A program made the position numbers and the translations under genes. The notes beneath the pieces were generated by a model. The model was not told the origin of the DNA, made no database searches, and saw only the letters and a program-made list of their open reading frames with translations. 55,382 nucleotides of DNA from Gammaproteobacteria bacterium (GTDB lineage Bacteria; Pseudomonadota; Gammaproteobacteria; Steroidobacterales; Steroidobacteraceae), in contig SCUD01000072.1 of NCBI GenBank assembly GCA_004297335.1, forward strand, positions 1 to 55,382. Direction: 5' to 3'. Each line of letters starts with the position of its first letter. Position 1 is the stretch's first letter. Shown here piece by piece: positions 3,169-45,830 of the stretch.

Positions 3169-6761
<3,593 letters not shown>

Positions 6762-29406: not shown

Positions 29407-29445
29407 GCCCTGCCCGCTCCCGGGTCTCCTGGTTCCTGCCCGCTG

Positions 29446-29471
29446 TAGCGGCCGTCGCGCATCAGTCTTGA
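29446..29471 (-). promoter_or_regulatory. Sigma-28 (FliA) promoter of flgMN
   Basis: On the minus strand: TCAAG, 14 nt, GCCGCTA, in a CTCAAG context. Spacing and -35 are identical to the sites found in front of fliC, fliD and the HDOD gene. The predicted transcript start is about 33 nt before flgM. Confidence 0.65.
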
Positions 29472-39405: not shown

Positions 39406-40599
39406 ATGCGAGTCGCCTTCCTGTCGATGCAGCAGGCCTTCCTCGACGCGCTGTACCGGCACCAGGGCAGCCTGGCACGCCTGCAGGAGCAGGTCGCGAC
39501 AGGCCGCAAGTTTGCGCGCCCCGGGCAGGATCCGGTCGCGGCGACCGAGGCTCTCGGGCTCGATGCCGTCCTCGCCCGCAATGCCTCGTATCTGCGCAAT
39601 GGCAGCCAGGCCCTGAGCCGGCTCGGGCTGGAGGAAGGAGCCCTGGCCGGAATGGGCGACGTGCTGCAGCGCGTGCGCGAGCTGACCGTGCAGGCCGCGA
39701 ACGGCCCGCTGCCCGCCGGCGACCGTGCCATGATCGCGGCCGAAGTTCGCGAGCTGCGTGCCCAGCTGCTGTCGCTGGCGAATTCGCAGGATGGCAGCGG
39801 CGCTTACCTGTTCGCCGGCAACGCGACGCAGTCGGCGCCGTTCCTGCAGTCCGGTGGTTCCGTGGCCTACCTGGGCGACCAGGGACAGCGCCTCGTGCAG
39901 ATCGGTTTGGACCGATTCGTGGCGGACGGCGATCATGGTGCCGGGCTGCTGATGCAGGTCCCGGATGGTGATGGTGTGTTCCGCGTCGTCGCGGGCGCCG
40001 CGAATACCGGCACCGGCCTGCTCGGTCAGCGCGGTGTAGTCGATGCAGCACAGTACGATGGCGGTACCTACTCGATCGTGTTCACGGCGCCGGATGCCTG
40101 GGAGGCCCGGGATGCGCTCGGGACTCCGGTCGCGACCGGCGCCTGGGTGCCGGGCGAGGCGGTCCGCTTTCGCGGGCTTGGCATCACCCTCAGTGGCCAG
40201 CCGGCGACCGGCGACCGGTTCGAAGTGAGCCCGAGCAGCCGCCAGAGCGTGTTTGCCATGCTCGATGACCTGGTCGCGGCGCTGGAGGCTGGCGCGACAA
40301 CCCCGACCGCGAGAACGGCACTGGCCAACGACTTCGCCGACCTGCTCGGCGGACTCGACCAGGCTCTCGATCACCTGCTGGAAGCGCGGGCCGGGATCGG
40401 TGCGCGGATGGGGGCCATCGAGTCGCAGGAGGAGTCCCTGCAGGCGGCCGGGATCGACCTGCAGCGGACCCTGTCAGGCCTCCGCGACACGGACTATGCG
40501 GCGGCGCTGACGCGACTGCAGCAGGAGTTGACGACCCTCGAGGCGGCTCAGCAGAGCTTCGCACGCACCGCGGGCCTGTCGCTGTTCGACTACCTGTAA
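39406..40599 (+). CDS. flgL: Hook-filament junction protein FlgL (HAP3)
   Basis: The 397-residue second junction protein, flagellin-related at both ends. The N-terminus contains RVAFLSMQQAFLDALYRHQG and LARLQEQVATGRKFARPGQD; the C-terminus has LRDTDYAAALTRLQQELTTL and ends in a short LSLFDYL. It is 4 bp behind flgK and is the last gene of this run; the HDOD gene runs toward it from the other strand. Confidence 0.94.
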   Translation: MRVAFLSMQQAFLDALYRHQGSLARLQEQVATGRKFARPGQDPVAATEALGLDAVLARNASYLRNGSQALSRLGLEEGALAGMGDVLQRVRELTVQAANGPLPAGDRAMIAAEVRELRAQLLSLANSQDGSGAYLFAGNATQSAPFLQSGGSVAYLGDQGQRLVQIGLDRFVADGDHGAGLLMQVPDGDGVFRVVAGAANTGTGLLGQRGVVDAAQYDGGTYSIVFTAPDAWEARDALGTPVATGAWVPGEAVRFRGLGITLSGQPATGDRFEVSPSSRQSVFAMLDDLVAALEAGATTPTARTALANDFADLLGGLDQALDHLLEARAGIGARMGAIESQEESLQAAGIDLQRTLSGLRDTDYAAALTRLQQELTTLEAAQQSFARTAGLSLFDYL

Positions 40600-40626: not shown

Positions 40627-41547
40627 CTATTCACTGAGGGCGCTGCGCAGCTCGGCGATCTCGCTGGCGCTGCCGGCCAGGATCGCCTCGAGCTCGGGTG
40701 CATCGATGCCGAGGCGCTGGAAGGTGTTGGCACCGGCGATCAGCAGCGCAGAGTCGGTGACCGCCGGCTCGTAATCCGCCGTGCGTACGGCGACCGAGAG
40801 CACATCGAGCAGGTCGCGACGCAGTCCGGCAGGCCGCGAGGCGACCTCCTGTTCCGCCACCGCCGTGGCAACGCCTTCCGCCAGGCCCCAGTTTTCGGCG
40901 ATCGCCCGGCCGATCTGCGGGCTCCACTCCCGGATCAGTGCGTCGCGGCTGACACGGTCGGTGAACAGCGGTGAGTGCTGGTCAGCGCGGGACAGGATAT
41001 ACACGCAGCCGATATTGTGCAGCAGGCCGGCGAGCATCGCCTCGTCGGCATCCGCGGCGCGGGTATGCAGTGCGATGACGTGGGCCAGCGCCGCGACCAG
41101 CGTGCTGCGCTGCCACAGGGTTGCCAGATCTGCACGCAGGTGCCTCAGGGAGGCCGCCAGCCGGATCTGGCCCATCGCATAGGCGATCGCGGCCGAGCGG
41201 GTGTGCTGGTGCCCGATGCGGGTCACGGCCTGTTTCAGGTCCACGATCTGCCGGCCGCCACGCGAGAGCGCCGCGGAATTGGCCAGGGTCAGGATCCGGG
41301 CCGCGAGTCCGGCATCCGAGGCCACCACCAGCGCGATGCGACCGTCGGTGACCTCGGGCTGGGACAGCGCCCGGTGCATGCGCACCACGACATCCGGACA
41401 GGCCGGCAGGTCGACGCGTCCGGTGGACAGTTCGGATGCCAGCATCTGGACGAAGCGGAAGGCATCGGCGTCCGCCGTGGCTGGAGCACCTTGAGCCGAG
41501 TCCATGGGTTCGGGCACGGCGTCCCGGTTCGGATGCGGTCGTTGCAT
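40627..41547 (-). CDS. HDOD-domain signalling protein
   Basis: A 306-residue protein with an HDOD domain (about residues 40-240). Recognisable are LPACPDVVVRMHRAL, VVASDAGLAARILTLANSAA, VTRIGHQHTRSAAIAYAM and GLLHNIG, the HD-like pair of which lacks the full phosphohydrolase set, as usual for HDOD. HDOD proteins are regulatory adaptors, several of them tied to motility (for example in Campylobacter and Xanthomonas). The upstream region holds a perfect FliA-type promoter, which puts the gene in the late flagellar regulon. Confidence 0.85.
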   Translation of the reverse strand: MQRPHPNRDAVPEPMDSAQGAPATADADAFRFVQMLASELSTGRVDLPACPDVVVRMHRALSQPEVTDGRIALVVASDAGLAARILTLANSAALSRGGRQIVDLKQAVTRIGHQHTRSAAIAYAMGQIRLAASLRHLRADLATLWQRSTLVAALAHVIALHTRAADADEAMLAGLLHNIGCVYILSRADQHSPLFTDRVSRDALIREWSPQIGRAIAENWGLAEGVATAVAEQEVASRPAGLRRDLLDVLSVAVRTADYEPAVTDSALLIAGANTFQRLGIDAPELEAILAGSASEIAELRSALSE

Positions 41548-41606
41548 GAGACTTCCTTGTTGTTTTCCGTGTGGCAGCCAGCGCCGGCGCCAACACCCGT
41601 TCCGGG

Positions 41607-41632
41607 TATCGGCCGGGCCAGTCCGGACTTGA
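41607..41632 (-). promoter_or_regulatory. Sigma-28 (FliA) promoter of the HDOD gene
   Basis: On the minus strand TCAAG, 14 nt, GCCGATA: the best match to the FliA consensus in the window. The predicted start is about 53 nt before the HDOD ATG. It is back to back with the fliC promoter, 38 bp apart. Confidence 0.75.
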
Positions 41633-41670
41633 GCGCCCTGTGGCTGGGCCGGCGCGGGCGCTGGCCGGAC

Positions 41671-41696
41671 TCAAGAAATCCGCGGCGGGTCCGATA
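41671..41696 (+). promoter_or_regulatory. Sigma-28 (FliA) promoter of fliC
   Basis: TCAAG (41671-41675), 14 nt, TCCGATA (41690-41696). The predicted start near 41703 gives a leader of about 95 nt before the flagellin ATG, the long leader usual for fliC. Confidence 0.75.
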
Positions 41697-41797
41697 TGAC
41701 GGCCGGGCGCAGTCACCAGTGGCCGAACGGGCCGGGCGAGGGGCGCATCGTACAGCCGGCGGGGGCCGGACATTGTCCACGACCAGGAGCAAGCAAC

Positions 41798-42625
41798 ATG
41801 ACGGGCCAAGTGATCAACACCAACATGCTGTCGCTGAACGCGCAGCGCAACCTTTCCACGTCGCAGACGAGCCTGGCGACCGCGCTGCAGCGGCTGTCGT
41901 CCGGCCTGCGCATCAACAGCGCCAAGGACGATGCCGCGGGACTCGCGATCTCCGAGCGATTCACCGCGCAGATCCGCGGCCTGAACCAGGCGGTCCGCAA
42001 CGCCAATGACGGCATTTCGCTCGCCCAGACCGCCGAAGGCGCGCTGGCCGAGGTGACCAATAACCTGCAGCGTATCCGCGAGCTGGCGGTGCAGTCGGCC
42101 AACGCGACCAATTCGGCTTCGGACCGCGCCTCGCTGCAGGCGGAAGTCGACCAGCTGATCGAGGAGATCGACCGCGTGGCCGGCCAGACCTCGTTCAACG
42201 GCACGGCGCTGCTGGACGGCTCGTTCACTTCTGCCGTTTTCCAGGTCGGCGCCAACGAGGGCGAGACGATCACGGTATCCGTGACCGTCGATGCCACGAC
42301 GGCAACGCTCGGCGTCGACGTCGCGGACATCGCGACCGACGAAACCACGGCTGGTGCCGCCATCACGCTGGTCGATGCCGCACTCGACGACATCAACGCG
42401 GCGCGCGCGGAATTCGGCGCGATCCAGAATCGCTTCGAGTCGGTGATCACGAACCTGTCGACCGCTGCCGAGAACCTGACCGCCTCGCGCAGCCGGATCC
42501 GGGATGCCGATTTCGCGGCGGAGACGGCCGCGCTGACGCGTTCGCAGATCCTGCAGCAGGCCGGTGTCGCGATCCTGGCCCAGGCCAATGCGGCGCCGCA
42601 GCTGGTGCTCGGCCTGCTGCGCTGA
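41798..42625 (+). CDS. fliC: Flagellin FliC
   Basis: The filament subunit. The 275-residue product is among the short flagellins. The conserved D0/D1 ends are complete: [20 protein letters not shown] and [20 protein letters not shown] at the N-terminus, and [20 protein letters not shown] with [19 protein letters not shown] at the C-terminus. Only about 60-70 residues lie between, so D2/D3 surface domains are absent. AGGAG stands 8 bp before ATG 41798; the in-frame codon at 41696 lies inside the promoter and is rejected. Confidence 0.96.
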
Positions 42626-43048: not shown

Positions 43049-43074
43049 TCAAGAATTCCGGGCGGTGTGCGCTA
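43049..43074 (+). promoter_or_regulatory. Sigma-28-like promoter of fliD
   Basis: TCAAG (43049-43053), 14 nt, TGCGCTA (43068-43074). One base of the -10 departs from the fliC/flgM/HDOD set. The first spacer bases are close to those of the fliC site (CTCAAGAAWTCCG in both). It precedes a sigma-54 site by about 22 bp. Confidence 0.45.
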
Positions 43075-43095
43075 AGCCGGTTGCCAGGCCCCGAC

Positions 43096-43111
43096 TGGTA
43101 CGTTCCTTGCT
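43096..43111 (+). promoter_or_regulatory. Sigma-54 (RpoN) promoter of fliD
   Basis: TGGTACG-TTCC-TTGCT, a good -24/-12 match. The predicted start near 43122 leaves a leader of about 26 nt before ATG 43148 and excludes the GTG at 43121 as start codon. Confidence 0.75.
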
Positions 43112-45260: not shown

Positions 45261-45830
45261 ATGGGCGAACCGCCTGGACCGTTCGGCGCCGGGCTCGGGC
45301 ATGCGGAGGACCTGCCCTTCGAGTTCCGGCCTGAGGCCGCGGTGCTGCATCCGGCACGGCTTGCCCGCATCAATTCAGACAACGCCCAGGTGCTGCTCGC
45401 CGACCTGTCGCTCAGTGAGTCGCGACGTGCCGGCGAAGTCCCGGACGACGACCAGCCCTGGCTCGCCGACCTGGAACGCATTGAATACAAGCTCAATGTC
45501 CTCCTCGGCCTCGTCGCCCGCCTGCTGGCGCAGCGGGACTCGCTGCCCGGGCACCGCCGGGTGCGATTGTTTGCCGATGGTCTCGAATGGCTGGCCGGCG
45601 CCGCGGCCGTCGCGATGGAGGCGCGCGGCGTCGCCGTCGTGTATGTCAACCCGGCCTTTCCGCAACCGCTGTTCCTGCCCGGCGTCATCGTCGGCCGGCG
45701 CAGCGATGCCGACGGCGACTGGTCGCAGTTGCGCTTCGAGGGCTTGAGCGGCCAGGTGGTCGACTTGCTCGGGCGCATGATCTTCCGCCGGCACCGCCGC
45801 CAGATCGCCGAGACCCGGGCGGCGCCTTGA
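45261..45830 (+). CDS. PilZ-like protein in the fliD-fleQ run
   Basis: A 189-residue protein with an N-terminal helical part containing LADLERIEYKLNVLLGLVAR and a C-terminal strand-rich half (RVRLFADGLEWLAG, FLPGVIVGRR, LRFEGLSGQVVDLLGRMIF). This layout resembles atypical PilZ proteins coded beside fliS and fleQ in Xanthomonas and Pseudomonas relatives. The classic RxxxR and DxSxxG motifs are not clear, so c-di-GMP binding is doubtful. It starts 5 bp after fliT. Confidence 0.6.
   Translation: MGEPPGPFGAGLGHAEDLPFEFRPEAAVLHPARLARINSDNAQVLLADLSLSESRRAGEVPDDDQPWLADLERIEYKLNVLLGLVARLLAQRDSLPGHRRVRLFADGLEWLAGAAAVAMEARGVAVVYVNPAFPQPLFLPGVIVGRRSDADGDWSQLRFEGLSGQVVDLLGRMIFRRHRRQIAETRAAP

Follow-up and report, generated by a model that had tools for sequence, protein, structure and literature searches.

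The window, meaning the whole 55,382-nucleotide stretch analysed here (contig SCUD01000072.1 of assembly GCA_004297335.1; Gammaproteobacteria, Steroidobacteraceae), carries a flagellar cluster with flgN, flgM, flgA, flgK, flgL, fliC, flaG, fliD, fliS, fliT, a tPilZ gene, fleQ, fliF and fliG, together with fleS, fleR, fliE and flgB-flgI, which were named from position. Between flgL and fliC lies a gene encoding an HDOD protein (Table 1). This gene is convergent with flgL, with 27 bp between the two genes. The true start of fliC is the ATG at 41798, the mechanical ORF start at 41696 being too early. The tPilZ gene (45261-45830), with an atypical c-di-GMP receptor domain, sits between fliT and fleQ.

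Table 1. Genes and predicted transcription or translation signals around the HDOD gene (window coordinates).
Feature	Position	Strand	Details
flgL	39406..40599	plus	Pfam flagellin domains; FlgL name from position and length
HDOD gene	40627..41547	minus	306 aa; Pfam HDOD, E 1.4e-33
Ribosome-binding site of HDOD gene	41552..41558	minus	AAGGAAG, read from sequence; 4 nt before ATG
Predicted sigma-28 (FliA) promoter of HDOD gene	41606..41632	minus	-35 TCAAG 41628-41632; -10 GCCGATA 41607-41613; matrix score 21.2
Predicted sigma-28 promoter of fliC	41671..41697	plus	TCAAG-N14-TCCGATA; score 21.6; begins 127 bp before fliC
fliC, flagellin	41798..42625	plus	275 aa; Pfam Flagellin_N/C
Sigma-28-like promoter of flgM	29445..29471	minus	score 16.5, third in window; flgM ATG 29406; FlgM by Pfam
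Sigma-28-like site before fliD	43049..43075	plus	score 14.6; fliD start ATG 43148
Sigma-54-like site before fliD	43096-43111	plus	pattern with 1 mismatch

Promoter of the HDOD gene

Upstream of the HDOD gene, minus-strand bases 41632 to 41606 read TCAAG-N14-GCCGATA-C, and ahead of fliC plus-strand bases 41671 to 41697 read TCAAG-N14-TCCGATA-T. The two promoters stand back to back with 38 bp between them, and the sequence bears out a first-pass annotation of this DNA, which had placed an HDOD-facing sigma-28 site on the minus strand at that distance from the fliC site. The -10 element ends 59 bases upstream of the HDOD ATG, and the transcript would have a leader of about 50 nt. Sigma-70-like sites were looked for between 40500 and 41900 and none was found, and no sigma-54-like site was found near the gene, the nearest being at 43096; an alternative sigma-70 or sigma-54 promoter was rejected on these pattern searches around the gene. 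An inverted repeat at 41620-41671 surrounds both -35 boxes, with inner arms AGCGCCC (41632-41638) and GGGCGCT (41656-41662) plus outer arms. An operator or hairpin between the promoters was considered and rejected: the repeat exists, but its fold is ordinary for its composition and no stronger than that of shuffled sequences (z -1.56; 12 of 200 shuffles as low).

The pattern TMAAG-N14-BCCGATA, chosen post hoc after the two sites had been seen, occurs without mismatch at three places in the 3.96 Mb host genome, two of which are the HDOD and fliC sites. The third perfect match (C3:5907; score 14.7) lies inside an opposite ORF and was set aside. With up to one mismatch allowed, the host genome holds 31 places against 39 + 37 (76) for the reversed control, so there is no enrichment at this level. 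Looser matches are therefore mostly due to chance, and weaker sites alone mean little. Because the one-mismatch pattern was uninformative genome-wide, a promoter matrix was built from 16 of 32 rows taken upstream of fliC in relatives, excluding the window row, duplicates, and rows with three or more mismatches or atypical sites; the training rows thus already resembled the consensus. Twelve of the 16 training sites begin 116-131 bp before fliC.

The four best matrix scores in the window, whose own sites were unused in training, fall before three classical late genes and the HDOD gene: fliC (21.6), HDOD (21.2), flgM (16.5) and fliD (14.6), with the fifth at 13.5. In 200 Markov-simulated windows of the same dinucleotide make-up, matches of at least 14 averaged 0.18 and matches of at least 21 averaged 0.005. 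Real HDOD-bearing loci, which include many flagellar genes, gave 46 and 8 such matches in 80 loci (1.29 Mb), or roughly 2.0 and 0.34 for a stretch as long as the window. The HDOD site had been called the best sigma-28 match in the window; it is among the top two, and by the matrix it ties with the fliC site. Against the E. coli-type consensus it has two mismatches, as do sites at 6537 and 17623 inside called genes.

The FliA-type site of flgM, which encodes the anti-sigma-28 factor, would give the usual feedback loop. For fliD, the presence of sigma-28-like and sigma-54-like sites before the start makes a dual promoter likely. Elsewhere in the host genome, contig C182 carries fliA in the order flhA-flhF-flhG-fliA-motA-motB, in which flhF and flhG were assigned by position and reading frame; the fliA product is 58% identical to a relative's FliA and has sigma-70 regions 2, 3 and 4. 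Assignment of the HDOD gene to the late FliA class, also proposed in the first-pass annotation, is supported by the promoter, by the FliA gene in the genome and by the way the family tracks flagella (below), and on this sequence evidence we regard membership in the FliA regulon as well supported.

Co-occurrence with flagella

Among 147 genomes of the order, the HDOD family (E <= 1e-40) was found in 56 of 58 flagellin-positive genomes (E <= 1e-25) versus 14 of 89 flagellin-negative ones (Fisher p 2.4e-24, uncorrected for kinship). Thus 70 genomes carry the family and 58 carry flagellin: both are present in 56, flagellin only in 2 (G051 and G142), HDOD only in 14 and neither in 75. The HDOD and flagellin surveys were taken as covering the same 147 genomes by matching listed handles, with 57 and 69 negatives unlisted. 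The 39 nearest genomes, the host's own included, gave a similar picture at E <= 0.001 for both proteins, with an HDOD match in 24 and flagellin in 21. All 21 flagellin-positive genomes had an HDOD match, versus 3 of 18 flagellin-negative genomes, one of the three matches being very weak. One genome, G025, is flagellin-positive in this set and negative at E <= 1e-25. Six same-genus genomes are without flagellin and HDOD; their completeness is 75-87% in five and 98% in one. Flagellin matches are numerous in some genomes, with ten in G017 (C10, C16, C17) and eight in G132 (C11, C13, C29, C31).

Gene neighbourhoods and promoters in relatives

Placement of the gene between flgL and fliC had been expected to recur in relatives. 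It does so in only one other drawn locus (L232), where the gene is on the forward strand and a FliA-type site scoring 18.8 starts 43 bp upstream of the called gene start; a conserved flgL/HDOD/fliC arrangement was therefore rejected, being mostly absent among the relatives' loci drawn. Elsewhere the HDOD gene is found at the end of a che operon (cheR-cheD-cheB-HDOD), after flhA-flhF-flhG-fliA-motA-motB, by fleQ, or by flgM/flgA. A deduplicated set of 95 family genes (>250 bits) includes 61 that lie no more than six genes from a labelled flagellar or che gene and 34 that do not, some contigs being short; CheY, FleQ, FleS and FleR labels were left uncounted in these neighbour tallies. Neighbours were named by BLAST to references, of which those for FleS, FleR, FliE, FlgB-FlgI, MCP, FlhA, FlhF and FlhG had been named from position rather than each by Pfam. 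As judged from these genome sequences, the HDOD family is inherited with flagella in the order, and it is the association of the family that is conserved, though the arrangement is not.

FliA-type sites are enriched before family genes. A site scoring at least 13 was found at the gene's own or its operon's promoter for 26 of the 95 family genes; among 1671 non-flagellar control genes from the same loci, 72 had one (p 6e-13, uncorrected for kinship). Directly upstream, in a larger set of 138 family genes (>190 bits), such a site precedes 23, and the count for other genes is 61 of 2130 (p 2e-10, likewise uncorrected). An initial mismatch-based count, with duplicates kept (zero mismatch in 8 of 110 HDOD genes, against 8 among 1527 others), was superseded by this deduplicated matrix test. 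Since 69 of 95 family genes are without a site of at least 13 at their own or operon promoter, and 115 of 138 are without one directly upstream, most of the family shows no recognizable FliA site. Some of these genes sit in che or fliA-motAB operons whose heads are also site-less, and others stand alone. Gene calls came from a home-made ORF caller, and errors are therefore present in some start positions, operon heads and upstream regions. Of loci L202-L231, seven were used in the promoter and neighbour tests, and the rest overlapped used loci or were omitted. On a quick tree of the 95 proteins, at least 11 changes of site label are needed.

Individual loci illustrate the range of contexts. 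In L254 (G068, of the same genus code as G009), a site scoring 20.5 stands at the head of a che run of nine genes, the last of them HDOD. The order in L048 and L137 is an HDOD-GGDEF-labelled gene, the HDOD gene and then fleQ-fleS-fleR, the first of these bearing a FliA-like site (scores 13.1 and 14.2); the HDOD-GGDEF domains were shown by Pfam for the relative in L034, and the whole possibly forms a c-di-GMP module. Three tandem HDOD genes follow flhA-flhF-flhG-fliA-motA-motB in L043 (8004-11252).

HDOD protein

A search of the host's own contigs found a single HDOD gene. Its product matches Pfam HDOD (PF08668) with 116.4 bits against a curated cut-off of 22.9. The domain spans residues 46-233, between an N-terminal extension and a C-terminal tail that ends ELRSALSE (family consensus ALRxALGx). 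HDOD is the sole Pfam family in the protein, and the N-terminal YbaK-like domain that is a feature of SadB is absent. PDB chains 3i7a and 3hc1 match the protein, and the nearest named relatives are from Steroidobacter, at 47% and 44% identity.

HD-type metal-dependent phosphohydrolases (HD-GYP or similar) are defined by an HD metal-binding pair. This pair is not present in the window protein, which has H177-N178 at the corresponding position. A 17-row alignment has HN there in nine rows, HG in six and HD in two, which makes metal catalysis unlikely for most family members. Of 69 positions with a conservation of 80% or more among the other 16 rows, the window protein deviates at 10; relatives deviate at 3 to 24, and with a count inside this range the gene is unlike one in decay. 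Seven of the protein's nine clade mates have shorter branches on the quick tree.

Chemotaxis genes

Within four genes of 35 of the 95 family genes lies cheA, cheB, cheR or cheW. On the quick tree the window protein falls in a 10-row clade (SH-aLRT 98), six rows of which are che-linked and two mot-linked. In the host genome, the one MCP, three CheW-domain places and one CheA found all belong to a single cluster on C95, the layout of which we take to resemble that of a Pil-Chp (twitching) system. A search of this genome turned up no flagellar CheA, CheW, CheZ or MCP; the assembly consists of 187 contigs and is 97.6% complete, so a che cluster may have been missed.

Flagellar-type CheA, defined as a match of >300 bits to one relative's CheA, is present in 9 of the 21 genomes that have flagellin in the set of 39 (G007, G009, G010, G018, G021, G022, G029, G031 and G033). 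The other 12, the host's own included (G000, G008, G014, G015, G016, G017, G019, G025, G027, G030, G037 and G038), are without it, and CheZ was found in none of these; G015, scored as CheA-negative, additionally holds two CheA-like places, of 202 and 208 bits. Three of the nine CheA-positive flagellates (G018, G029, G031) likewise have no CheZ, so its absence alone proves little. All 12 CheA-negative flagellates nevertheless retain an HDOD match, and a role tied solely to flagellar CheA was for this reason rejected.

A chemotaxis accessory that works with CheA/CheB or CheY, and that here is a leftover or serves the Chp system, is an unlikely reading of the gene. It draws on the che-linked third of the family, in which HDOD ends che operons, on the six che-linked rows of the window protein's clade, and on PMC11813219, whose authors suggest that PSPTO_4229 might, by binding, interrupt chemotaxis or another flagellar function. 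It sits poorly with the 12 flagellates just described and, as regards a Chp role, with four of the six same-genus genomes, which have a Chp-type CheA but are without flagellin and HDOD. A history in which a che-operon HDOD gene was retained and moved beside fliC, under its own FliA promoter, on loss of flagellar chemotaxis is plausible. As flagellar che genes appear to be missing in the host and in other flagellates that keep HDOD, the essential job of the HDOD protein is probably CheA-independent.

Relation to known systems

Several HDOD proteins have been linked to motility. According to the accessible text of PMC11813219, deletion and overexpression of PSPTO_4229, a 273 aa HDOD protein of Pseudomonas syringae pv. 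tomato DC3000, each lower swimming; the overexpression effect requires R84/R85, and a Congo Red assay was without visible change. Like the window protein, PSPTO_4229 is a stand-alone HDOD protein of similar size. Unlike the window gene it has no reported FliA control, the term FliA being absent from the main text of PMC11813219, and the two were compared by description only. SadB of Pseudomonas fluorescens F113 is described in the available portion of PMC6543031 as an HDOD protein that controls flagella and binds c-di-GMP with a Kd of 0.23 uM. It differs from the window protein in its extra N-terminal YbaK-like domain (PMC6543031), and it is placed there upstream of FleQ, that is, early, whereas the window gene has a late-class promoter. 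In Xanthomonas campestris, loss of the HDOD protein GsmR lowers motility and affects transcription of flagellar genes including fliC (cited in the accessible parts of PMC11004494 and PMC6543031). Cj0248 of Campylobacter jejuni is an HDOD protein with a motility phenotype (cited in the same portion of PMC11004494), and it appears in a table of flagella-formation genes in the part of PMC4894983 consulted. Cj0248 (PDB 1vqr) is distant, its profile match to the family (E 2.9e-09) covering positions 35-115 of 295 only. The likeness of GsmR to the window protein is also by description only, and we know of no flagellar-regulon promoter for gsmR. FlgZ and YcgR are FliA-class accessory regulators that serve late-regulon signalling and tune motor output; they are PilZ c-di-GMP receptors, a domain unrelated to HDOD.

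A full-text search of open-licence PMC articles found no paper that places an HDOD gene in the FliA regulon, and the accessible passages of PMC11004494 and PMC6543031 hold no such claim. A part for HDOD proteins in motility is known already; an HDOD gene in the FliA regulon was not found in the literature searched.

Proposed role of the HDOD protein

The reading that we favour, with moderate confidence, is that the gene is part of the late FliA regulon, its product being a stand-alone and probably non-enzymatic adaptor that would tune flagellar output independently of chemotaxis. Once the hook and basal body are done and FlgM has been exported, FliA would make flagellin and the HDOD protein together. 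The HDOD protein may then bind a partner, with the motor, the stators, FlhF/FlhG, FleQ or a c-di-GMP-linked regulator as candidates. By such binding, as a protein- or c-di-GMP-binding adaptor, it would adjust motor output or flagellar gene expression. The host genome holds 11 GGDEF places, and these together with the tPilZ gene in the cluster indicate that c-di-GMP signalling is likely present. More tentatively, and with considerable doubt, the HDOD protein could be a general chemotaxis-independent controller of motor or flagellar gene output, belonging to the late regulon in an order of Gammaproteobacteria and retained by about half of the flagellated species sampled (12 of 21) where flagellar-type CheA and CheZ are absent; in those species it might be the main route by which a signal (c-di-GMP or a protein partner) reaches the motor.

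It is also conceivable, though decidedly improbable, that the promoter is real and that its product does not act on motility, serving instead as a c-di-GMP or stress regulator that reports completion of the flagellum. HDOD proteins with wider roles, such as HdpA in attachment, and the binding of c-di-GMP by the HDOD protein SadB (both from the accessible part of PMC6543031), together with the GGDEF places of the genome, lend this some appeal; the tight co-occurrence with flagellin and the absence of the family from most flagellin-negative genomes speak against it. Finally, although an inverted repeat joins the two -35 regions and TCAAG starts both sites, it is very hard to credit that the HDOD-side site is an unused by-product of a symmetric fliC upstream region, given that its -10 GCCGATA lies outside the repeat and matches independently, that spacing, leader and ribosome-binding site are in place, that FliA-type sites also precede HDOD genes elsewhere, in different contexts, and that the repeat folds as its composition predicts.

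HDOD is widespread as a signalling domain, and its mechanism has yet to be established. The present family, which in this order is rarely apart from flagellin, is here wired to FliA and is kept without visible flagellar chemotaxis, offers a clean setting in which HDOD binding and function can be addressed, with swimming as the output, known timing and the che confounder absent. The locus points to flagellated bacteria that may tune their motors without CheA, and it makes the HDOD gene a good candidate for chemotaxis-independent control of swimming.
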